Shown: piece by piece, positions 4,361 through 52,495 of the stretch
Layout: every line of letters begins with the position of its first letter
How positions within the stretch are numbered: position 1 is the first letter of the stretch
Assembly (NCBI GenBank): GCA_021234155.1
Contig: JAJEKV010000027.1
Location: 4,464,623-4,528,622, forward strand
Origin: Isoetes taiwanensis
Lineage: Eukaryota; Streptophyta; Lycopodiopsida; Isoetales; Isoetaceae
Direction: 5' to 3'
DNA: 64,000 nt
Translations under genes and position numbers: made by a program
Notes under the pieces: generated by a model
The model's input: the letters and a program-made list of their open reading frames with translations, nothing else
What the model was told of the DNA's origin: nothing
Databases searched by the model: none

Positions 4361-5226
4361 TCATTTAGGCGGACGGTGGACCAGGAAGGCAGCGCATTGC
4401 ACTTGTCTCACATTGTCAAATCCAATAATGCGAATGAAAGCCTTGGGGTATTCCTTCTGGCATTCTGCAATCTCCCTCAGAACCTGGGCCGAATCTGTGC
4501 ATCCAAACATCGGCAACTTCCACATAACCCAGTAGCGTCCATCATAATATCCAGGGCTTTTGTTGTTCACCCTAGAGACGGTCCCAACCTACAAAACCAA
4601 CTTCATCTTCAACATATATATCAACATAATTTAGAATGAAGGACAAGAATTCAGGCTCACGTTGTCAAACTCGATGCAAGGGATCCAGCCGCTGCGGAGA
4701 ACATAGTCGATTTGCTTGGCGATGGCATCGCTGCTGAGTGGAGGAAGGTAAGAGAGGGTCTCGTATTTGTCATTATTGTAAGGGTTGAGAGTCTGCAAAT
4801 AAGTGGAGAAAATTCAAAAAATGAAGGCAATGTTCCCAATACCATGGTTCAACACCAACAATGGGGCAAGTCCTTCATATGTTAAAACTGAGCAATAAAT
4901 GGTTGATATTTTAGACCTAGTATAATGGTTAATATTTTAGACCTATAAATGAACAAATTTTCATTTCAAACTTAGCAGTTTAGGACTAAAACAAAGAAAT
5001 GAACGATTTTAGGACGAAGAATAGGTACCTGCATGCAGTGAAGGCGGCTTCCATTTTGGACAGATCTGGAGGCAAATTCAGAATCAACACTAGAGCCAGA
5101 AAACAGACCGCCAGATTTAAGGCCAACAAAAGGCTTGATCCGGCTGGGCTCAGCGGCTTGGAAAGCCTTTGAAGAAAAGGCAGCAGGGCCGGAGACTGTA
5201 GCCGAAGCTGTAACTATGGCTGCCAT
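4361..5226 (-). CDS. rbcS: Ribulose-bisphosphate carboxylase small subunit, chloroplast precursor
   Basis: Three exons on the minus strand join in frame: 5226-5029, 4792-4661 and 4588-4361, giving about 185 codons, the normal precursor length. The first exon is a serine/alanine-rich chloroplast transit peptide starting [11 protein letters not shown] and ending at the Met-Gln that begins the mature chain; an intron exactly there is typical of land-plant rbcS genes. Exon 2 carries the ETLSYLPP motif and [10 protein letters not shown]; exon 3 carries [17 protein letters not shown], the helix with [11 protein letters not shown], and [14 protein letters not shown] near the end. The product assembles with RbcL in the stroma to form L8S8 Rubisco. 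Splice sites are all GT-AG. No lesion is seen, so it is probably functional. Confidence 0.95.
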
Positions 5227-13700: not shown

Positions 13701-13877
13701 GCTTCTTTCCAGATTATTTGGACCTAGGTGATGGTTGCCCACTTAGTCCTTCCCTGGACTAACACCCATCTCTTCATTCTTATTAACCCGAGTTTATGAG
13801 TTACGAATTCTTGTTACTAATTTTTTATAAAGAAAGATATTTATTATTTGAGTCCCACTTATTTCTCTGTTTGATTT

Positions 13878-14080
13878 CAAGTGTTAAACGCCTTAGGAGC
13901 GTTTCAACAGCATTTGATCAGGTTTTTGAAGATGAAGTGGACATCATTTCATTGTCCGTTGGCGGTGATGTCATGCCTTATTATCTCGATAGCATTGCTT
14001 TGGGTGCATTCGGTGCCATGAGACATGGCATTTTTGTTGCTACTTCTGGAGGTAATCAAGGGCCGAGGGAGCTACCTTGA
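13878..14080 (+). pseudogene. Subtilisin-like serine protease, isolated exon
   Basis: After a TTTCAAG acceptor, about 65 codons match the catalytic domain of plant subtilases between the His and Asn residues: a DVDIISLSVGG-type strand, YYLDSIALGAFGAM and GIFVATSGGNQGP. The catalytic His and Ser regions and the signal peptide are missing, and the frame ends RELP-stop with no continuation. It is therefore a lone captured or left-over exon. A SINE lies 200 bp upstream. Confidence 0.8.
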
Positions 14081-21890: not shown

Positions 21891-22500
21891 AGCTACGAGC
21901 AATGGTTTTTAGCTGAGCATGGCATCACGGGCAACTCAGCTTCTACTTCTTCGCATCTTCAAGATTTTGCTAGATTCGTTTGGTTTTAAGAGTTTGTCTT
22001 TCCTTTTTGCAATGCTTCTCGGCTGAGCATGGCATCAGGGCAAAAGGGTTCTTAATCTACAAACACAATCCGGCAATGCTTTTAGAGTCAGGTGAAGAGA
22101 ATGATGAGAAAGCTTTGTCACAAGTAGAGCCTCTGTTTCAAATGCTTCTTCGGGCAGAGCCATTAGCAAACAAAAGGGGTTGATCATATTATATGCATGA
22201 CATATACGTTGCATATTTGTTCTTCACTTTGACTGCGTTTGTTTGCAGTAAACGATCCATTTTGTGAAGAGTTAAGCTCTTTTTTGCTGTATGTAAGCAT
22301 AACTGTGGATGCTTTTTGAGGCCTTTGAGGCCATCATTTTTTGTTCCTGCTAGGATGACTCTATCAAACAAGAATACAACGCAATGATCATATATAGTTG
22401 GCCACGAATGCTTGGGCAGAATGCTAGATTCTTACATTGCATTTCAGGTAAATTGGCCATTTATCTACAAATTATTTCTGAATGGATAATATTGTTCCAG

Positions 22501-23079
22501 GATGAAGTAAGTGTGTCACAGCAAAGTGAGGATGCTGCAAGATTTAGTAACAGGCCTTTACAGAATTCTGCTCTTAATTTGTCATTGGAACAACCAGGAT
22601 CACTAGCTATAGATAATGCAAATCGCCATGTCAGCCATGGGCGTATTGTTAGTCAAAGAGATGAAAGTATATTGGGGAGGAAAGGAGCCCAAAGAGGTTT
22701 GCCGCTGATAGTGAAAGGGGCCCACTATTTGCACCCCATGAGCACATGGAACGTCTTGCAATTAATTCCTCTACAACAAACACAAGGTCAGCCAAGCTCA
22801 TCCTTCCCAAGGTCTGTACACATTTTAAAGCTCTTTGTATGTATAGGTGGCATAGTTGTAATGTTTGTAACATGCAGGTAGATGCACTTCCGAAGCCATA
22901 TAATGCGTTACCTTCTACCCATTCTACATTAATGAGAAAGGTTGAGGTAATATGCCATAGATCTTTATTTAATATTCTTGATAATGCTATTATTACAGTT
23001 TTTAAACTTGCTGATCGTACATTAACAGGAGACTCAGAGGCTTATTTCTATTACACAAGATGTGGACGAATTGAAAGTG
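22501..23079 (+). pseudogene. Unrecognised spliced gene, exons A-C (copy 1)
   Basis: Exons 22501-22811, 22878-22940 and 23029-23079 are bounded by good AG and GT sites. Exon A encodes a Ser/Gln/Asn-rich low-complexity chain (NRPLQNSALNLSLEQPG, then HGRIVSQRDES); exon B gives LPKPYNALPSTHSTLMRK; exon C gives ETQRLISITQDVDELKV, a probable coiled coil. No known domain is recognised. Relative to the second copy, copy 1 lacks four bases (GAAG) near 22668, which shifts its frame. Confidence 0.5.
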
Positions 23080-23978: not shown

Positions 23979-24338
23979 AAATTATGCGAACTGTTGTTTT
24001 AGAAGAAACTCGTCTTAACTCTAAACAGTTAGACACTGTTCAAAATTTTCCTGTTAGACAGTAGATTTTGGTTGGTTAGTAATAGCAAAAGCAGTCTGTA
24101 ATTCTTATACTTCCCTAATCCTGTAATCTACATAGCGCACAAATAATCTGAAAGTCGATCATTTTAAAATCAAGATTGAAACTTGTCTAGTGTGCATAAC
24201 TACCCCACTCATGAGAAACAGGTATGGAATGTTGTAAAATTGCCAAAGATGTTGCAACTCTTTGTCAGCTTGATTTTGGTCTGTGCAGGCAGAAACGGGT
24301 GTTCTCTGTAGCCTGCAATCAATGGATATTGTTCCAGG

Positions 24339-24829
24339 ATGAAGTAAGTGTGTCACAGCAAAGTGAGGATGCTGCAAGAAATAGTAACAGGCCTTTACAG
24401 AATTCTGCTCTTAATTTGTCATTGGAACAACCAGGATCACTAGCTGTAGATAATGCAAATCGCCATGTCAGCCATGGGCGTATTGTTAGTCAAAGAGATG
24501 AAAGTGAAGATATTGGGGAGGAAAGGAGCCCAAAGAGGTTTGCCGCTGATAGGTAAAGAGGCCCACTATTTACACCCCATGAGCACATGGAACATCTTGC
24601 AATTAATTCCTCTACAACAAACACAAGGTCAGCCAAGCTCATCCTTCCCAATGTCTGTACACATTTTAAAGCTCTTTGTATGTATAGGTGGCATAGTTGT
24701 AATGGTTGTAATATGCAGGTAGATGCACTTCCGAAGCCATATAATGCGTTACCTTCTACCCATTCTACATTAATGAGAAAGGTTGAGGTAATATGCAATA
24801 GATCTTTATTTAATATTCTTGAGGTGCAG
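24339..24829 (+). pseudogene. Duplicate of exons A-B of the unrecognised gene (copy 2)
   Basis: A direct duplicate of about 22501-22979. It keeps the frame where copy 1 has lost four bases, but has a TG-to-GT change near 24555 that makes a stop after the SPKRFAAD segment. Similarity starts within the intron just before exon A (ATATTGTTCCAG) and ends near 24825, after exon B, so intron DNA was duplicated too. Confidence 0.8.
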
Positions 24830-24849: not shown

Positions 24850-25850
24850 AGCAAGTATCAGAGAAGCAGTCTCAAAGAACAATAACCTACCAAAAAGACA
24901 GATGATGACAAAAGTGCCTGGAAACCCGACAATTGCTTATGAGCCAGAGTTAGAAAAAATTGGGCCATGGTATATTTGCTGTGAAGAGTGTAGTGCCGGG
25001 CCATGCACAAATTGAGGTAGAGTACACTGCTTGTTCTGCAATCGACACGCACAAATGATGAAAGACAATGGGCGCAATTTAAAGATTTTTGAAGATAAAC
25101 GAATGATAAAATTAGAGGCGAGAATGCAGCAAGGGTGATGCAATGCTACAATATGCTGCAATGTGTGGGAGCAATCCAAAACTTGGAGGAATATAACTAC
25201 AGCTCGAAAATTGGGAATACAACCAAGGCGTGCCAGTTTTGCTGTGAGAAAAGTCCTACGGAATACAAATGTAAAGCTCTAGCAGCAAGAATCGAGGAAA
25301 AAATTTGGAAAGCCGGGGAAACTTCAAGCAAAAAGGCACGCAAGACATGAAGAAAAATTGTCGGCAGCCCAACTATGTTCAATCTCCAGTCTGCATCTCA
25401 AGCTCCATCTGATTTCAACCATGATCTATATCTTCTAGGATAATTAGAATGTAATCGCCCTTTGAGGGAAATTTTGTATAATTGTATAAATTTTTTGACC
25501 GACAAATAAATATATAGTTCAAGGCATCAAATTTGCAAAGGATCTTGGAAATGCTTGAAGAAGTGAATGTCAAACAAAGGATAAAAAGAGAAGGCAACAA
25601 AGCGATATTGTGTAGCTAATATATGATTATAACATAGGGACTAGAACATCATCTTAACTCCTAGTAACACAATATAAAGGTCGTTAGAATTTAGCAGAAT
25701 TTGGTAGATATTTGTTACTACTCGGATGCAAATAAAACTTAGGAAGGGCATGCGACAAGGAGGAGGCGGGCGCAAAGGAACAAAAAGGAAATAGACAGAC
25801 ACAAACAAAATGGACGAGGGATGCAGGATTATAGGACAACGAAAACATCG
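24850..25850. other. No recognised gene; cysteine-rich open stretches
   Basis: At 24960-25140 and 25140-25350 on the plus strand there are frames with spaced cysteines (ICCEECSAGPC, CLFCNRH, CQFCCEK) that could be remnants of a zinc-binding domain of a mobile element, but one contains a stop and neither matches a family I know. Confidence 0.3.
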
Positions 25851-25936
25851 TAACCAACGGGACCTTAAAATTACTTAAGATTATTCCTTCTTTTGTTTTC
25901 AGGTAATTCTTGGGTGATTATTCCTTGAAAGTTTCT

Positions 25937-25960
25937 GGCGGCGCTCTGGTGGCGCCGCCA
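25937..25960. repeat. GC-rich hairpin inside the 3' end of the Crypton-like element
   Basis: GGCGGCGC and GCGCCGCC are separated by a 7-8 base loop in otherwise AT-rich DNA, about 65 bp inside the left inverted repeat. It could act as a transcription end structure or recombinase-binding site. Confidence 0.6.
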
Positions 25961-26169
25961 TGTCCCATTATACACCAAAAAAAACATTAAATCATTACAT
26001 CAGAAAAACAGATCATTAAATCAGAAGATCATTACATCACAAAAACATCAGATCATTAACAGAAGATCATTACATCAGAAGATCACTTCCAAAATCACTT
26101 TCAAAAAAAAGTTTATACTTCAGATTTCACATCAGATTTCATCATCAGATTAGTTCACAACAAATGAGA

Positions 26170-28357
26170 TCAAGGCGCCTTTGGTATAGCGGCGAACACA
26201 TTCTCCACTATTGCTCCAGCCTGCGAAGGATTGCATATTGAAATAGAAAGAAAGACACAATTTTTATTTGTAGCTCCCATGAAAGATTGTCCTCCACTAT
26301 TACTCATTCTCGAATTTGCAATATAACTCCCACCACCTTCCAGCTGAGGACAAGTCTGAAGACACTTCTCCCACACATCGTTCGTGATATCAAGTTGCTT
26401 CAAATCTGTAACAGCAACACTTCCAGAATTCACAGCAACATCTTCAACTGCGACAACATCTTTAGTAGCAGCTTCAGTAACTTCACTAGCTGAACCAGCA
26501 GGAAGAACAATTGGAACCTGGAAACAAACAAAAGTTACTAAACCAAATAAACAAAATAAAACCCAGAAACTAGAACTAAATAATTAAACTAAAAGACAAA
26601 CTAAAATATAGAAACATACCTGATCTGCAACTTTTCCTTTCTTGTCGTCAAGACTTGGCAATCCAACTTTCTCACCACTAGAACTTGCGCCAGGATTAAA
26701 TGCTCTCATAATTGCACTCTTCTTACTTTTTTGCTGTTGAAGAACATCACTGTAAACCTTCAATGAACCATCGTCGTTATACGGACAACCTAGAATACTC
26801 ATTGCAGCATCAACCTGCATTTCTTTCGTTCTATCATACCTAGAAAACATAAACAACAGTTAATATCAATACAGAGAAAGCAAACAAATACTAAAATAAA
26901 ACAAAGTTGCTTACTTTTTATATGAATCAACGTTGCGATGACCAGTAATAAGCATCCCGATCTCAGGTGGAACTCCAGCCATTGATAACCTTGAAACCAG
27001 TGTCACACGACCGCTCTTGTTAGTTATTTCTACATCACTCACCAAACTGCCCATACACTGCAACCATGTACGAATTTTGTTCACACCCATTGGTACCTTC
27101 TGGTACCATGCCTGCAATAACAAAAATAACAGAAATATTAATGACTATTATTAAAAAAAATCAGAAATACAATAAACTTACAAAACTTACATTATATCTT
27201 GGATTACAAATTGTTTGCAGAAAAAAAGCCCGTGGCTGATCATTATCCTTCTCCGACAAATGCCTAACATACTGCTTGTATGTGTCGACAAAGTCTATTT
27301 CATAACTCCAAATTGGCGGTAAATCACGAATCATCAAACTGTTCATCTTCTTTGTGCCAATTCTTTGAAACTCGCTCCCTGTACATCACAGCATCTCCAT
27401 ACTCATCGCTGCGAAGACTGACATCACAATCAAGCACTCCATGCAGTTCTTTATACCCGCGAATCCCAAACCTAGAAACCATGTAATGCATAAAAGCGTT
27501 TCGACAACACAAAAACATAATTTATTAGAAAAGAAACGAAAGAAACAATTCAAACTAAAATTTAAAATTACATGTATTATGTGTGATCTGGTGATCGCGA
27601 TCTGCTAGTAATTCACATTCCAATTGAAAACTTATCTCAGCTGCCTTCTTCTTTGTTGCTGCACCAACTCTAGCACGTCGTGATCGCTCTGCAGCACCAA
27701 TAAACGCCTTGCAGCTCTACCAAATAGCGGATGGTGCAAAATATTAAATCGTGGACGATCAATTCCAGTTTCTTCGATTATCATATCCTGCTTTTTCCTG
27801 ATTATTCGACCAATGGTTCTGAAAAGGTTATTTAAACTGCAAAAACAATAAAGAACAGTTACAATTAAAACACAAAAGCACAAAAAAAAAAACAGAAATA
27901 CATACCTGCTAGCAGGAAACATCTTGCCATTATTTTTCTTCACTTGGAGAATAAACATGACAAGCATTTCTCCCAACTCGAGAGAATGGAATGTCTTCAA
28001 TTGGAGCGGAAGTATCCATCTTCACGAATTCTCTCCACGCATCAAATTTCTTCCTAGCCCAATTGGTTACCTTTGATGAACCATCTCTTCCACCATGATA
28101 TACATCATGCATTATTTTCTGATCAAGAGGGGAAACGATCACTCCCGGGTTCTTTTCTTTGTGTCTGGCGGGAACCCTAAACTCTTGAAAAACCATGGCT
28201 CTTTTTCAACTTCCTCCATGAACTGAGTAACCTCATCATTGACATTTGCTTCCAAGAATTTGTCTACGTCTATCACTTCTTCCTCACAGGCAACAGAACC
28301 AGTCAAGTTCAAGGAAAAAGATGGAGTCTCCATTTCCTTACCTCTAGAATCCACCAT
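26170..28357 (-). pseudogene. Crypton/DUF3504-type tyrosine recombinase
   Basis: Six exons on the minus strand (28357-27906, 27836-27572, about 27518-27191, 27111-26915, 26839-26620, 26517-26170) with GT-AG sites; exons 1-2, 3-4, 4-5 and 5-6 join in phase. The N-terminal helical domain has SSKVTNWARKKFDAWREF and VMFILQVKKNNGKMFPAS; the catalytic domain has Arg-I in FGIRGYKEL (about 27460), FFLQTICNPRYN, PMGVNKI, the box-II NKSGRVT (about 27010), ITGHRNVDSYKKY with the box-III His and the presumed nucleophile Tyr split by an intron at 26915. Such enzymes cut and rejoin DNA through a phosphotyrosine. Four single-step frame changes (near 28150, 27985, 27705 and 27335) mean this copy is decayed or the assembly has indels. 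The C-terminal exons are Ser/Gly-rich and unrecognised. Confidence 0.72.
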
Positions 28358-28726
28358 ACTAAACAGAGAAACATTAGAAAACCTAAAGAGCAAAACAAGC
28401 CACAAAAGACCTGCCATTGCAACCTGCAGACAATAAAAAAATGTTAGATAAATATATTAAGAAGAACCTTAAAAACTACAGCTTAAAACTAACCTTAAAA
28501 TGTTGAGCAAACGCAGAACTTGATCTTTTATCAAAATAACTCTCCACTTGCTGCATGCATGCAACTGGAAATACCTTAAAAAACATCCCAGACTGAACCA
28601 GCACGCTCACAGCCACAAAATCTCGACTAAATGCCACTAAACCTCGACTCACAGCCACGAACATATCCAAGAAGTTGATTACCTCCACCAAAACACCTCA
28701 AGCACAAGTTATCTCGACGAAATACC

Positions 28727-29200
28727 TGCAAAGTTCACAAGAAAAAGTCTGTAAGAAAGAAACAAAAGAAAAATTACAAAAACTCAAAAAAAACTCCACA
28801 AACTCGAGCAAAGAACACGTCGTCTTGAAGCTCGTCTCCTAGCGCCTCCGAAAACAACCTCCAATCCAAAAAAATGGCTGCCGATCGAGCTGGCGCCACA
28901 AAAAAGAACCTCGGATGAGCTCTGCCGGAATAGGACGTCAACAAAAAGTTGATTACCTCCACGAAATACTTGCAAAGTTCACAAGAAAAACTCTGTAAGA
29001 AAGAAACAGAAGAAAAATAACAAAAACTTGAAAAAAACTCCACAAACTCGAGCAAAGAAGACGTCGTCTTGAAGCTCGTCTCCTAGCGCCTCCGAAAACA
29101 ACCTCCAATCCAAAAAAATGGCTGCCGATCGAGCTGGCGCCACAAAAAAAGGAGCTCGGAGGAGCTCTGCCGGAATAGAACGTCAGCAAAAAGGGGCGAC
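28727..29200 (-). repeat. 244-bp tandem duplication in the leader of the Crypton-like gene
   Basis: The unit beginning TGCAAAGTTCACAAGAAAAA at 28727 recurs at 28971 (period 244). Each copy contains AACTCGAGCAAAGAA, CGTCGTCTTGAAGCTCGTC and the GC-rich ATGGCTGCCGATCGAGCTGG block. Identity is high, so the duplication is fairly recent. It lies between the TATA box and the probable start codon. Confidence 0.9.
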
Positions 29201-29215
29201 ACAGTCAGCAAAAAG

Positions 29216-29248
29216 GTATTATTTATACCCCTGCTGACGTGGCAGGGG
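29216..29248 (-). promoter_or_regulatory. Promoter of the Crypton-like gene: TATA box and ACGT hairpin
   Basis: On the minus strand GGGGTATAAATAATACC carries a TATA box (about 29219-29226). Directly upstream, 29228-29248 is a near-perfect inverted repeat, CCCCTGC-CACGTCA-GCAGGGG, whose centre is a TGACGTGG-type bZIP-binding ACGT core. The whole lies directly inside the 21-bp terminal repeat. Confidence 0.55.
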
Positions 29249-29279
29249 TAATTTTAAGGTCCCGTTGGCCACGTCGGGA

Positions 29280-29377
29280 GAATGCACGCCACCTGGCGGT
29301 TTCAGTGGAAATCCCAGCGGCGCGCCCGCCCGGCTGCCGCTGCGGTTTCCACTGAAACCGCCAGGTGGCGTGCATTT
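29280..29377. repeat. 98-bp GC-rich palindrome (31-bp perfect arms)
   Basis: Arms at 29280-29310 and 29347-29377 are perfect reverse complements (AATGCACGCCACCTGGCGG... and back), and the centre pairs again through CAGCGGC and GCCGCTG. Imperfect pairing extends outward by about five bases. It lies 11 bp outside the right inverted repeat of the Crypton-like element. It may be a small foldback element or part of the target locus. Confidence 0.9.
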
Positions 29378-29774
29378 CCCCCTACTAACCATACGGGTCA
29401 AGATAGCAGAGGTACACGATCAAGACAAGAGCCAAACAAGATCAAGGGCATGATACTTAACAAAAAAGTTGTTTTTCCTTGCCTGGAAGTTTTGTGATGC
29501 AGAGCTAACTTACGAGGATGGGAGTACAAACTTATCTAATATGGTCAATCCAGTTGTTGACCAGATGCCACAGAGACATAAATTCAAAATTCTATCCATG
29601 AAAACACTAAACTACTCAGTTACATAGACAATTCGATTGAGGGGCACTTGTGGACGGGCTTGTACATGAATATAGGGGAACTACAAACTGATTGTAAGAA
29701 CATGGTAGGGGTCTACTTTAATTTAAATATAGATTATTGAATACATAACTTCACGTTTAGATTTAGGCCATCTC

Positions 29775-31678: not shown

Positions 31679-31812
31679 TAGCTGTTGTTCCTTTTCTATT
31701 TAAACCTGCTGAATGATAATCTCGGCCGTGCATTTCATTGTATGGTTTTTCTTCTCTTTATTAATGAAATCACCCCCTTTGTGATTCCTCCCTTGACATC
31801 CTGAGTTCTTTA
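31679..31812 (+). repeat. 5' LTR (134 bp recognisable) of the copia element
   Basis: TAGCTGTTGTTCCTTTTC... to GAGTTCTTTA matches 36025-36158 with two differences in 134 bp. The immediately following TGGTATCA marks the primer-binding site and hence the LTR end. The ends are not TG...CA in an obvious way, so the exact 5' boundary is uncertain. Confidence 0.85.
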
Positions 31813-31825
31813 TGGTATCAAAGCC
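31813..31825 (+). other. Primer-binding site (initiator Met tRNA type)
   Basis: TGGTATCAAAGCC differs at one base from the usual plant copia site TGGTATCAGAGCC and lies directly after the LTR. Confidence 0.85.
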
Positions 31826-31843
31826 CAGGTCCCTTTCCAAGAA

Positions 31844-34800
31844 GATGGAAATCAATTCTGCAACTTCCTCCAGATCACTGCCGGTGTGTAGCATCGCTGG
31901 ATTCCCTGAAACCTTCGACCCAACCAAAGGATTAAAAGACTTTGGCATTGAAAGGTTCAGAGGTGATAACTTCCCCATGTGGAAGTACCGGATCGTCACG
32001 TATTTTTAAAGCGGTACCGGGTTATGGGAGGTTATAACCGGCGTGAGATCAAACACGTGGGAGATCAAAAGCCTTGAAGAAATGGGTGGTGAAAGACTCT
32101 CGAGCTCATTCCCCAGCTTATTTCTTGCATTCACCATTCTGCAGGCTTAACAGTTGAAAGTATCTCATAATGCCCATGAATGTTGGTCCAAATTGTTTGC
32201 ATTTATTTGAATCCAAAACATTGGCGTCTCAAGTCATCTTTGAGGCATCGACTTTATGCCGTTAAAGTCCAAGAGGGAGAATCCATGAGTCTCCACATTG
32301 GCAAAATCCATAATATCATGGATCACTTGAAGAAGCCGGGAGATCAAGCTATGTGATACGTCTTTGCTGCTATATGGATCAACACAATTGCCTCACCTTA
32401 CTCTCTAGTCCGCCTCCCCGCATATGGGAATCGGTGGTAGTACTTTCAAAACGGTCCTTCCACATTGACATGGGAAGAAGTCGATGCAAAAATCCTGCAA
32501 GAAGAAGTCCGGTTGCAGCAGCGGGGATCTCTGGATCCTCAAGTAGCCCCTGTTTACTCAAAACAAGGCGCCCGAGCAGATTATGGCACGAGGGAACATG
32601 ATTCTAAGGAATCAAAAGGCCTCGATGCACTCATTGCCGGAAAAGAGGGCATATCAAAGAGAAATACTGGAAATTGCTTGTTGAGCAAGCTCGTAATGCA
32701 AAGGCTTCAAATGGAAGTACCCCATCCGCTCAAACCGGAAATTCCGGTTTCACTAATCTTGAATCTCGGGTTCAACCAACGAGGAGCCTTCATGATCGTG
32801 GCCACCCAATGCCCTTGGACACAACTTGGTGGCTTGACAGTGGAGCATCTCATCACATGACCGGGAGAGCAACAGTTTTTCGCTCGGTTAAAAGTGCTTC
32901 ATCCCCCAATCCCATATCCACGAGCAATGGGAGCAAACGATTGCAGCCCACACCGAGAAGTCCGCATCACTCTCAACAATGGTAAAAGTCTTTCCATTGC
33001 AAATGTACTTCTTGTACCTGGTTTGGATCAGAATCTCCTTTGCGTGGCTCAACTCACTGACCTTGGCTTCAACGTGGCATTCTCACCAAATCATGCAATG
33101 CTCTTGGATGCAAATACCAAGAGGGTTATGGCCACATGCATCAGATATGGAAATCTCTATAAAATGGATACTTTTCTCGAAGGTTTTGCACTTCATACTC
33201 AGGTATCTGATGAGCTATGGCACCATAGGCTTGGTCATGCAGGCTTGGACAGCGTTCAGCATCCAAGGCCGTCACTGGTTTGCCTTCACAGTTGTTGTTC
33301 TCTCGCTCTTGTGAAATCTGCACCATGGGCAAGCAACACAAGCATCCTTTTCCAAATGAAGCAAATCGAAGCAGCCTTCCAGGCCACCGAGTACTATATT
33401 TCCGGAGCGCATCCTCAATCACTTGGTGGATCTCTCTATTTCCTCACATTTATAGATGATGCCTCCATATACACTCAGGTATTCTTCATTCATAAGAAAT
33501 CTGAAACATTTCAATACTTTCAGCAATATGTGTTTTTTGTGCACACTCAACTTGGGCGACCTCTTCAAAGTCTAATGCGTGACAACGGAGGGGAATATAC
33601 TTCTATACAGATGGCAAAATTCTGCCAAGGCAATGGGATCGAGCACCGCACTTCAGTGGCTGGGAACTCTGAACAGAATGGTCTTGCTGAACGCATAAAC
33701 CGAACCATCAAGGACATGGCCCGATGTCTGCTTATCCAAGCTCACCTTCCAATCAAATTCTGGGCTGAGGCACATCTGTCTATCTCAGAAACAAGCTTGT
33801 CTCTCAGCGATCTAGCTTCAAGCAGACCCCATTTCGGACAGGAAATTCTCCAGATCTTAGCCATCTAAGAGTCTTTGGTTGTTTGACTCATGCTCTCAAT
33901 CTCCGGCAACAAGCTGGCAGTTCCTTTCAATCTCGAAGCATTCCAGCCATCTTCGTCGGCTATTCCACCACCAAAAAAGGGTACAAATTATATAATTGTT
34001 CCAGCAGGAAGATGTTTTACAGTCGAGATGTGCACTTCTTTGAAGATAAATTGGGAGCCTCGTTACTTTCCCCTGATGAAGGTCCAGCTTATACTTCCCT
34101 GCCCATGCCAGTTCAAGATCTGGAGTCTTCTCCAGCTGGTCCCCCAGCTGCAGACACTGCCATTGATGCACTCTCAAGTGGCATTGATCCAGCAGATGAT
34201 CCATTCATGGAATTCCAAGATGGACCACCAGAGATCCCTGCTCTCCCTATTACAGAACCTCCTCAAGTGCCTTCTGCTCCAAGACGTTCTAGCAGGCCAT
34301 GGAAACCCACAACACCCATTTTGGAGTACCATCAAGCCATGTTCAATGCAAAAACAGTGACTGCTCCCACAAATTTGGCTGAGGCTCTCCAAGACCCCCA
34401 TGCTGCTGAATGGCAACATGCCATGGATCGAGAGATTGCTTCACTCCATCGCAATCAAACATGGACATTGGTCCCGCTTCCATCTGGACGTCGCCTCATC
34501 TCCTCCAAGTGGATCTATAAGATCAAATTCAAAACTGATGGCAGCCTCAATCGATTCAAAGCTCGCTTTGTAGCTCGAGGATTCTCACAAATAACAGGAG
34601 TAGATTTTGGAGACACTTTCTCCCCCGTCATAAAAATGGCATCCATCAGAGTGCTGCTTGCTTTTGCAGCCCAGAATGATCTGAAAGTCCATCAAATGGA
34701 CGTGGAGGGCGCTTTCCTTTATGGAGAACTCACAGAAGATGTGTACATGGAGCAGCCTGAAGGCTACATTCAAGCTGGCCAAGAGAAGCTTGTCTGCAAA

Positions 34801-35964
34801 CTCAAGAAAGCACTTTATGGCCTTAAACAGGCTCCAAGGGCATGGTACCAAAAGATGCATTGTTTTCTTCTGGCACAAGGCTTTCAGAACGGAGATGCTG
34901 ACACCAACCTCTATATTCAACTTTGCGGATCCACCTTTGTGCTATTGGGCTTATACATTGATGATATCGTGCTTGTAAGCAACTCCCTTGCTCATCTCCA
35001 AGCCGTGAAGCAAGCTCTAGCTCACACTTTCTCCACGCATGATCTCGGTGATATTAGCAGCTGTTTGGGCCTCCGAATCACCTGCAACCGAGCTCAACAC
35101 CTCCTTTGCATTGATCAAGCACAATATGCCCATGATATCCTAGCCAAATTTTGCATGCGGGACTGCAATGGCTCTTCCATTCCCATGGAACCTGGCTTGC
35201 TTGTTTCTTCTGCTGACTGCCCCAAATCCCCTTCACATGCTTTGGCTATGCAGGATATTCCATACCGCAACTTGCTGGGTTGTCTCAATTACATCATGGT
35301 TTCCACCAGGCCAAATCTTGCATATTCAGTAAGCTTCCTTAGCTGGTTTATGGCCAATCCTGGCATTGTCCATTGGCAAGCACTCAAGAGGGTTCTTCGC
35401 TATCTCAAGCAGACTCAAGATTATGGCATCATATATGGCGCTGATTCCCGGTTTCCTCCCAACCATTTCATTGGTTACACTGATTCTGATCATGCAGGGG
35501 ACCATGATGAGAGTAAGTCCACAGGAGGTTACTGCTTTCTTCTTAATGGAGGTGCAGTCACATGGAGCTCAAAGAAACAGCAAGTCACAGCTCAATCCAG
35601 CACTGAAGCTGAATACATTGCCGCTGCTGAAGCTGCCAAGGAAGCTGAATGGATTATCAAAATCACCAAGGATCTTCCACTGCAGCAGGAGCTTCCTCTT
35701 ACACTCTTCTGCGACAATCAAAGCACCATTGCCCTTGGTAAGGATTCCAAATTCCATACTCAGAACAAATACATTCGTGTTCGCTTTCACTTTCTTCAGG
35801 ATGAGGTCCAAGAAGGGCGCATCACCATGCCTTATTGTCCCTCCAATGATATGCTTGCAGACATACTTACCAAGCCCCTGCCCAAAGCTAAGTTCGAGGG
35901 GCATCGCGTTGGTCAAAGCGTTCACCCATATTCCAGGAAGAGGTCACCTTCATTCCAGGAATAA
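31844..35964 (+). mobile_element. Ty1/copia gag-pol, decayed at the 5' end and nearly intact at the 3' end
   Basis: Gag begins near 31844 with FRGDNFPMWKYRI but meets stops by 32010 and is broken to about 32460. The zinc knuckle (about 32617) has C-x2-C-x4-H but a Tyr at the last Cys. Protease has WWLDSGASHHMTG (about 32830). Integrase (33200-33868) keeps its DDE residues, in FIDDAS, MRDNGGEY and NGLAERINRT. One frameshift near 33868 leads into a 693-codon frame with reverse transcriptase (KFKTDGSLNRFKARFVARGF, YIDDIVL catalytic box near 34960) and RNase H (TDSDHAGD, STEAEYIA, TKPLPKA). It would copy itself through cytoplasmic particles. Gag damage makes it non-autonomous. Confidence 0.93.
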
Positions 35965-36024
35965 TTGACGGCTTAATCTGGGCAACCTGATATTTAGGCC
36001 TAATCTAAGACATGATTCCTTAGT

Positions 36025-36158
36025 TAGCTGTTGTTCCTTTTCTATTTAAACCTGCTGAATGATAATCTCGGCAGTGCATTTCATTGTATGGTTTTTCTTC
36101 TCTTTATTAATGAAATCACCCCCTTTGTGATTCCTCCCTTGGCATCCTGAGTTCTTTA
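36025..36158 (+). repeat. 3' LTR of the copia element
   Basis: Matches 31679-31812 with two substitutions (about 98.5% identity), so insertion is fairly recent. The LTR holds TATTTAAA near its start and an AT-rich TTTATTAATGAAATC region. No clear target duplication was found at the outer edges. Confidence 0.85.
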
Positions 36159-50839: not shown

Positions 50840-51510
50840 GATGGATCACACCAAGCGAATAATACATATGCAAAAAAAAGGGACACACTAAATTCGCATG
50901 GTGTGATCCACTTTCTTATTTGTTGTCAAATTAAAATTAAACACAAGTACTCATTCCTATTTGTATCTAAAATGCTTTACCACTCTTAAGTACATAAGTC
51001 ATTATCCCTTTTCAAAGAGCATATTATTTTTCAAGAAGGATCACACCAAACGAATAGTACATATGCAACAAAAATGGAACACACTAAATTCGCATCGTGT
51101 GATCCACTTTCTTATTTGTTGTCAAATTAAAATTAAACACAAGTACCCCTTCTCATTTAATGCTTTACCATCCTAAGTGCATAAAGTTATTAGTCCTTTT
51201 CAAAGAGCATATCTTTTTTTAAGAAGGATCACATCAAGCATCCTATTTGCATCTAAAATACTTTACCAACTCTAGTAGTACATAAAGTTATTAGCCTTTT
51301 TCAAAAAGAAAACACTTTATCAATAAATGAGCACGTCACATATTATCCACACTTAACTTCAAATAAGACACATATATATTTCTTTTATTAAAAGATAATC
51401 AAAGTAATTTTACTATAGGAAGTCATCTTTTTCCAAAAAGATCACACCAAGCGAATTTTGTATAAGCTAAAAGGTTGGAATATACTAAATTCGCATGGTG
51501 TGATCCACTT
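50840..51510. repeat. Array of hairpin-bearing repeats (about 195-bp period)
   Basis: Each unit has GGATCACACCAAGCGAAT, 30-35 bases, then ATTCGCATGGTGTGATCC, an 18-bp stem with one mismatch: 50843-50909, 51038-51105 and 51439-51506. Between units the text CACTTTCTTATTTGTTGTCA and TTCAAAGAGCATAT recurs. Partial units lie at 50655-50690, 51222-51242 and 52200-52271. The array is AT-rich apart from the stems. Confidence 0.85.
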
Positions 51511-52495
51511 TCTTGTTTGTTGTCAATAGATAATAACACCAAGTCCCTCATCAATAGTCTCCCATTTGCATATAAAATATGTATCATTCCAAGTTATATT
51601 ATGTTTTATGAACTAAACTTTTTCAAAGAGGGTCCCAAAGCAAAATACAAACACTTAATCAATAAGCCACCACTTTACCAACAACCAAAGCTTTATTAAA
51701 TAAGATTTTTATGTTATTTTATCAAACCTAACAATGCTTCCATATGTGACACTTTGAGTTAACTGATCCAAAGGCTCATGAAAGCGACATTTTATACAAT
51801 ATATCTTTGGAGCTTTTGTGTCGTGGCATTAGTAAACACCTCTAATGGAGCAAATATTTTGTAACTCATTTTTTCAACAACCCTGGATGCACGTCTTATC
51901 AAACATTTCTTCATTGCAAGGACACCATTCTCATAAGGCTTGCACAATTCGCTTAAAAGAGGTCATGGGACGACTTTCAAGCTCGGCTCCCACAACTTTA
52001 CAACGTAAAACTAGATGCACATTGCCCTGAATGTATATCTTGGAAAAGCATGTCTCTTATGTCCATATGTTAGACAACAACGATGCTAGTAATGCTTTTC
52101 CCTAGTCTCAAATCCCCGACATCTGATAAATATAGCCCAAAGAAAAATATTTGATTCAGTGAGTGAATATAAATCAAGAAGAGGGAAGAAAAAAGAAGCA
52201 AGGATCACATGACGCCGAAATCTCACTACACATTTACAAAGTGCATATGCATTTTCGCATGGTGTGATCCATGTATTATTGAGGGTGCAAATTTGCAAAT
52301 ATCCTCCTCTTCAAATCCCTTCCCCCCTCCATTCCCTTTTTTTTTTTTGCAATATACTATCCATAGCATTTATTTTGAACCCTATAGTTCTACCTATTCA
52401 TTATGTATGAATGTCGCCCGGTGATGTAACTCCATAGTTACCCTTAGTTAAGGATAGCATTCTCACCCACGAGCCTATGGATAGATATCCTTCCA

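Follow-up and report, generated by a model that had tools for sequence, protein, structure and literature searches.

Introduction

Transposons that use a tyrosine recombinase (YR) are said to lack terminal inverted repeats (TIRs) and target-site duplications (TSDs) (PMC3627910). Cryptons possess neither TIRs nor long repeats, often carry short terminal direct repeats, and have been reported from fungi, oomycetes, a diatom and animals (PMC3212892). Helentrons, Helitron2 and DINE-1 have a 5' arm, a subterminal inverted copy of it at the 3' end, a 3' palindrome and no TSD; in Helitron2 the TIRs are asymmetric and palindromes are present at both ends (PMC4067079). In this study, we analyzed 64,000 nucleotides of the Isoetes taiwanensis genome (assembly GCA_021234155.1, contig JAJEKV010000027.1, positions 4,464,623 to 4,528,622; hereafter the window), in which a sequence-only reading had described a Crypton-type YR gene between inverted repeats. 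On balance, we favor the interpretation that this element represents a low-copy family of YR DNA transposons that combines a Crypton-like, DUF3504-type protein with a Helentron-like end layout. This interpretation is based on dispersed copies, sharp ends in unrelated flanks, TSDs not above chance, constraint on the recombinase, co-variation of the inverted arms and the presence of deletion derivatives.

Crypton is listed among the superfamilies present in all taxonomic groups of one survey (PMC4438587), 535 'Crypton' entries are given in a machine annotation of soybean (PMC8729191) and a Crypton class is included in a rapeseed annotation (PMC8245426). Therefore, the earlier statement that such elements are not recognised in land plants was too strong, although in the cited sections the survey and both annotations give the label without sequence detail. 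A recognisable description, with sequence, of a land-plant YR DNA transposon was not found in our searches of the open-licence literature. Plant ALOG proteins arose from the YR domains of DIRS1-type retroposons (PMC3537659).

Results

Dispersed copies of the element

One assembly (1.66 Gb, 1,110 contigs) was searched, and at least 83 matching stretches were detected, the window's own counted; the number is a lower bound, as 40 of 311 candidates were scored. Four other copies are near full length (92-94%). Twenty places were taken with their flanks for end comparison. In five copies (the window copy, L002, L031, L032 and L036), the YR gene is enclosed by the same two ends, 3.0-3.6 kb apart. This leaves scant space for a reverse transcriptase and makes it very unlikely that the gene is the remnant of a YR retroelement (DIRS, Ngaro) of which just the YR end is left, even though DIRS elements likewise combine a YR with inverted ends. 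A Crypton-derived host gene with neighboring repeats present by chance is hardly conceivable. DUF3504 genes have been domesticated in animals (PMC3212892), but the matches here are many and dispersed, and the examined whole-ended ones have both termini in common; for the family, a domesticated host gene is refuted by these dispersed copies. The earlier proposal of a mobile element with a DUF3504/Crypton-like YR gene in a probable plant genome is supported, and the element is multi-copy.

With the right-end sequence, 20 genome matches were obtained at up to two mismatches, and none with the reversed sequence; at least one of the 20 (C996) represents the opposite arm of the terminal hairpin described below. 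In C199 the right-end match lies about 6 kb past the YR match, and we assigned both to a single element that contains an insertion. A further five right ends have no YR match nearby; 3.1-3.4 kb was retrieved for each of them. One of them, L048, is an element of 1,786 bp with both ends and no recombinase; the other four are end fragments or doubled ends. No recognisable Helitron gene was seen in the long frames of these five regions, where no family scan was run. Internally deleted copies that retain both ends are L044 (1,012 bp) and L048.

Boundaries and terminal structures

The sequence-only reading had delimited the element by two exact 21-bp inverted repeats. Both repeats were confirmed: CCAACGGGACCTTAAAATTAC is located at 25854-25874 (+) and 29248-29268 (-), its sole matches in the window at up to three mismatches (0 in 100 shuffles). 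Allowing 2 mismatches, the arms can be extended to 26 bp (25849-25874 and 29248-29273). When copies were compared with the window element plus 1.5 kb flanks, those whose left end is whole were similar from 25847-25849 onward, and on the right similarity passed the 21-bp repeat and the hairpin region and stopped at 29385-29395. At single-base resolution, the start CGT(A/G)ACC, corresponding to window position 25849, was seen amid unrelated flanks in 9 of 14 left rows; the remaining five comprise L003-L005, which abut an inverted copy, and two rows of L046, one truncated and the other an internal fragment. On the right, 15 of 17 rows end with CCC(C/T)(C/T)TAC, corresponding to 29385, and L042 and L043 are truncated. 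Since similarity starts at 25849 and stops at 29385 at CCCCCTAC, the inverted repeat reaches the terminus on the left side but is subterminal on the other. The right repeat lies 112 bp inside the element and is followed by a long hairpin, so that a structure with both 21-bp repeats as termini was rejected. Copies extending past the repeats had been named in advance as evidence against the proposal; they overturn its right boundary and leave mobility standing. The element has the following parts:

25849..29385, no strand: whole element, 3,537 bp, CGTAACC...CCCCCTAC, limits set by similarity between copies, flanks unrelated
25849..25874, + strand: left arm CGTAACCAACGGGACCTTAAAATTAC, at the left terminus
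25936..25960, no strand: short GC-rich palindrome in the left-end region, 10-bp stem and 5-nt loop, from a fold of the window copy
28709..29193, no strand: tandem pair of about 241 bp each, 94% identical, upstream of the recombinase gene
29248..29273, - strand: right arm CGTGGCCAACGGGACCTTAAAATTAC, subterminal, 112 bp inward of the right end
29276..29381, no strand: GC-rich hairpin, 106 bp, 46-nt arms 91% complementary, 14-nt loop
29382..29385, + strand: right terminus CTAC; the common ending CCC(C/T)(C/T)TAC is present in 15/17 right ends examined

The hairpin is strong in the window copy, L031, L032, L036 and L048. A separate miniature inverted-repeat transposable element as its origin was rejected, as the hairpin region belongs to whole right ends. 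Shuffles gave p 0.0275 for a direct repeat that spans the window copy, TAACCA-ACGGG/TAACCATACGGG; it lies partly beyond the shared ends and was taken as chance.

Additional end pieces were observed in several copies. In L051 (3000-3100) the right-end hairpin is repeated, in L050 (2990-3050) a right end abuts an inverted right arm, in L031 (1500-1560) the left end is doubled, and L046 contains an inverted left-end piece (4620-4653). These pieces may be traces of the transposition reaction. L003, L004 and L005 (contig C952, 10.53-10.80 Mb) are arranged as head-to-head pairs with abutting left ends and an inverted 54-bp left-end piece between them; L003 and L004 have a common right flank, so this arrangement is partly a duplication.

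Recombinase gene and protein

The recombinase gene is encoded on the minus strand by six exons with GT...AG introns:

27906..28357, - strand: exon 1, start codon and N-terminal part; frame breaks near 28160 and 27985; fully open in L046
27572..27836, - strand: exon 2, frame break near 27701
27191..27471, - strand: exon 3, box I Arg at 27459-27461; frame break at 27373-27345; acceptor TTTCTAG|G
26915..27111, - strand: exon 4, box II K-S-G-R (Lys 27016-27018, Arg 27007-27009) and T-G-H-R (His 26938-26940)
26620..26839, - strand: exon 5, starts with the predicted nucleophile Tyr (26836-26838)
26170..26517, - strand: exon 6, C-terminal tail and stop

The chosen reading path comprises 591 codons without a stop (34 and 56 stops in the other two frames), and its base use differs markedly between codon positions (chi-square 105, p 2e-20). 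The six-exon gene with its motifs was correctly recognised from the letters; however, with four exonic frame breaks it is not intact as assembled. Either the window copy is damaged or the assembly is faulty there. In the window, a copia element (31679-36158) has direct repeats of 134 nt that are 98.5% identical, and its long open frames are broken by shifts; it is either young and damaged or hit by assembly indels. If assembly indels are behind these shifts, they may also bear on the breaks in the recombinase gene.

In the window copy, the spliced protein matched DUF3504 (1.3e-3) and Phage_integrase (0.063) in Pfam, a GmtY recombinase in NCBIfam (0.013, far under the cut-off) and an integrase in PHROG (9.9e-5). 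When six copies were scanned singly, DUF3504 was detected in two (best 7.7e-5, in L046), Phage_integrase in two (best 0.0015), PHROG 9208 in four (best 3.2e-4) and phrog_1 in two (best 6.9e-6). In this profile check, which the sequence-only reading had suggested, the DUF3504 and Phage_integrase scores stayed under the Pfam cut-offs. The three libraries point weakly but consistently to a putative YR. Searches of viral, prokaryote and phage collections returned no relative.

The spacing of the predicted active site is canonical, with the box I Arg and, from box II onward, Lys - 3 - Arg - 23 - His - 9 - Tyr. It equals the spacing of H344/R347/H370/Y379 in the Int active site of Tn1549, where strand exchange is carried out by Y380 (PMC5871717). 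The predicted nucleophile Tyr and the second Arg are both present. The domesticated DUF3504 genes of animals have lost these two residues (PMC3212892), which is a further argument against a host gene.

Selection and arm co-variation

Divergence from the window copy was determined by codon position at 33 loci, several of which are overlapping extracts of one place; the window is common to all comparisons, and L044 has no coding overlap. Third positions diverge above first and second positions in 27 of the 32 loci with coding overlap, for example 0.097/0.102/0.317 at positions 1/2/3 in L037 and 0.118/0.115/0.315 in L035. All five exceptions (L003, L004, L005, L007 and L015) are located on contig C952 and show 0.016-0.055 changes per position. 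Because third positions diverge most, the recombinase is, as judged from codon divergence, constrained between lineages, but not among the youngest copies.

The two arms were compared in a hand-compiled set of 11 elements read at both arms; one-arm elements, the C952 copies and the odd L050 were not included. Directly after CGTRRCCAACG, both arms have an identical dinucleotide in 10 of the 11 elements (GG in six, TG in one, TC in three), and this level was reached in 81 of 200,000 permutations. The exception, C199, has TC and CC in its arms, yet TTCAAA is common to both. When the right subterminal region was used to build a tree from 15 rows (17 had been tried), TC, TG and GG fell as successive groups, which suggests that at least two changes occurred in both arms together. 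At arm positions 4-5 the left arm has AA (GA in C199) and the right arm GG (TG in L018; L002 is truncated there), so the arms remain distinguishable.

Target sites

Ten copies with both ends were used to analyze the target sites. The exact match between the two flanks of a copy had a mean of 1.0 nt, compared to 0.78 nt for swapped flanks; L044 alone showed 4 nt, likewise the maximum of the swapped flanks. In these ten copies there was thus no TSD beyond chance, and direct matches in the flanks (3.6 versus 3.8 swapped) revealed no direct repeat beyond chance. Inverted matches were 4.1 in own and 3.9 in swapped pairs, and the largest value, a palindrome of 9 bp in the flanks of the C199 target, was dropped as a candidate on this basis. 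Insertion occurred at T|T in 4/10 copies and at A|T in 2/10, with no fixed target dinucleotide.

These results bear on the possibility of a cut-and-paste DDE composite that carries the YR and has lost its transposase. Tec elements carry inverted repeats. Composites of this kind are described: MarCry-1_FO resembles our element in its YR and 16-bp TIRs but differs by a DDE transposase and TA TSDs, and Tec1/2, which also code for a YR, differ in additionally coding for a DDE transposase (PMC3212892). However, target duplication did not exceed chance in the ten copies and the ends are asymmetric. DDE transposition was therefore rejected, and we regard a DDE composite as highly improbable.

Genomic surroundings

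A subtilase exon (13787-14077) gave three matches in the PDB (E up to 0.001), led by cucumisin from melon and a subtilisin-like protease from tomato. Together with the long terminal repeat elements that the window also contains, these matches are consistent with a plant host. Furthermore, a stretch of nearly 500 nt is present twice (22489-22981 and 24326-24822; 1.84 kb apart, 97% identity), and an 89-nt repeat occurs three times in 50874-51559, the second and third unit being 92% and 72% identical to the first.

Discussion

The element shares with Cryptons (CryptonA/I/F/S) a YR as main coding content, an often low copy number and non-autonomous deletion derivatives (PMC3212892). Cryptons are without TIRs, whereas the inverted repeat of our element is asymmetric and 26 bp long, and a hairpin is located at the terminus; the combination of absent TIRs and short direct end repeats that is typical of Cryptons was not observed. 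The inverted arms, terminal or subterminal, together with a 3' palindrome agree with Helentrons and Helitron2, whereas insertion at TT is not the rule here. Helentrons, Helitron2 and DINE-1 code for Rep/Helicase and use TT or T-rich targets; our element codes for a YR and uses no fixed dinucleotide.

This likeness raises the possibility that the element is Helentron- or Helitron2-like and mobilised in trans by a Rep/Helicase, with the YR gene as a passenger kept for another reason. Like Helitron2, the window element carries palindromes close to both ends; by virtue of the left-end palindrome (25936-25960) this explanation gains weight and the interpretation as a YR transposon loses some. Helitron replicase domains are also very abundant in the genome (Helitron_like_N, 150 matches scored of 1,813 candidates). 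However, in a comparison by eye, the distance on the same contig between any of these 150 and the 20 right-end matches was never below about 83 kb, and no Rep/Helicase was seen in the element's main gene. The ends are CGTAACC...CTAC and not TC...CTRR, T|T insertion accounts for just four of ten copies, and the YR is under constraint. We therefore consider mobilisation by a Rep/Helicase doubtful, though a serious contender.

Several observations weigh against a YR transposon family. The 5' arm, the subterminal inverted 3' arm, the 3' palindrome and the missing TSD are the Helentron layout. The right arm is not terminal, so a simple YR picture requires folding of the hairpin, and this hairpin is greatly reduced in L002, L039 and L044. 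Every copy stems from one genome; no circle was seen, and no empty site was found with the L032 flanks, of which the right one has a relative and the left does not align. At the protein level, every Pfam score stays under the curated cut-off, with DUF3504 and Phage_integrase each in two of six members; the box II His is replaced by Lys in the window copy and by Arg in L046. Neither sequence nor profile searches of the PDB returned a recombinase, and a single-exon structure model was unusable (predicted local distance difference test, pLDDT, 51.6). In the window copy the N-terminal half matches THAP9_C (0.028) beside QRICH1 (0.12), both sub-cutoff. THAP9_C is a DNA-transposase domain, so this match speaks for a DDE composite; it was absent when L046 was scanned. 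QRICH1 itself is derived from a Crypton (PMC3212892). Finally, relatedness was controlled in the arm co-variation solely through the tree.

How might a YR act on such ends? In bacteria, Tn916 and Tn1549 use a YR, their inverted-repeat ends are joined via a 5-7 nt crossover, and insertion proceeds without clear homology; these elements differ in being bacterial and conjugative, with truly terminal repeats and no hairpin end (PMC5871717). The sequence-only reading had regarded inverted ends as a new arrangement for YR elements. This novelty was predated by Tn1549 and, in combination with a DDE transposase, by the TIRs of MarCry-1_FO, but the repeats do matter. Starships, fungal elements with a DUF3435 YR, are eukaryotic YR-moved DNA elements, as we propose here, and differ by their large size, their cargo and their direct-repeat flanks (PMC12506042). 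Among the described recombinase elements that we found, none appears to have two ends built in this way.

A plausible model is that the 26-bp arms serve the recombinase as two half-sites and that it joins the ends into a circle, which would then insert at other sites with scant or no homology, in the manner of Tn916-type elements. Folding out of the hairpin (29276-29381) would bring the right arm within 6 nt of the end (TC + CTAC). The joined ends would then read arm - TCCTAC - inverted arm, a 6-nt spacer between inverted arms, and would thus be arranged like a site recombined by a YR. For a hairpin end, the integron attC site, where the YR acts on a folded single strand, comes closest as a precedent. 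Usually, a YR site consists of two inverted repeats of 11-13 bp that are separated by a spacer of 6-8 bp (PMC3212892). The stronger proposal, a new superfamily of eukaryotic DNA transposons whose YR recombines a folded right end and for which extrusion of the terminal hairpin is obligatory, we consider unlikely. If it were true, a plant transposon would exploit the folding of DNA much as integrons do, and the model makes sharp predictions on spacer length and hairpin requirement. The occurrence of a YR together with a Helentron-like layout could be used to test whether this layout follows the enzyme or the processing of the ends. A YR transposon family that has been long maintained in a plant genome would provide a worked plant example of Crypton-type elements, with defined ends.

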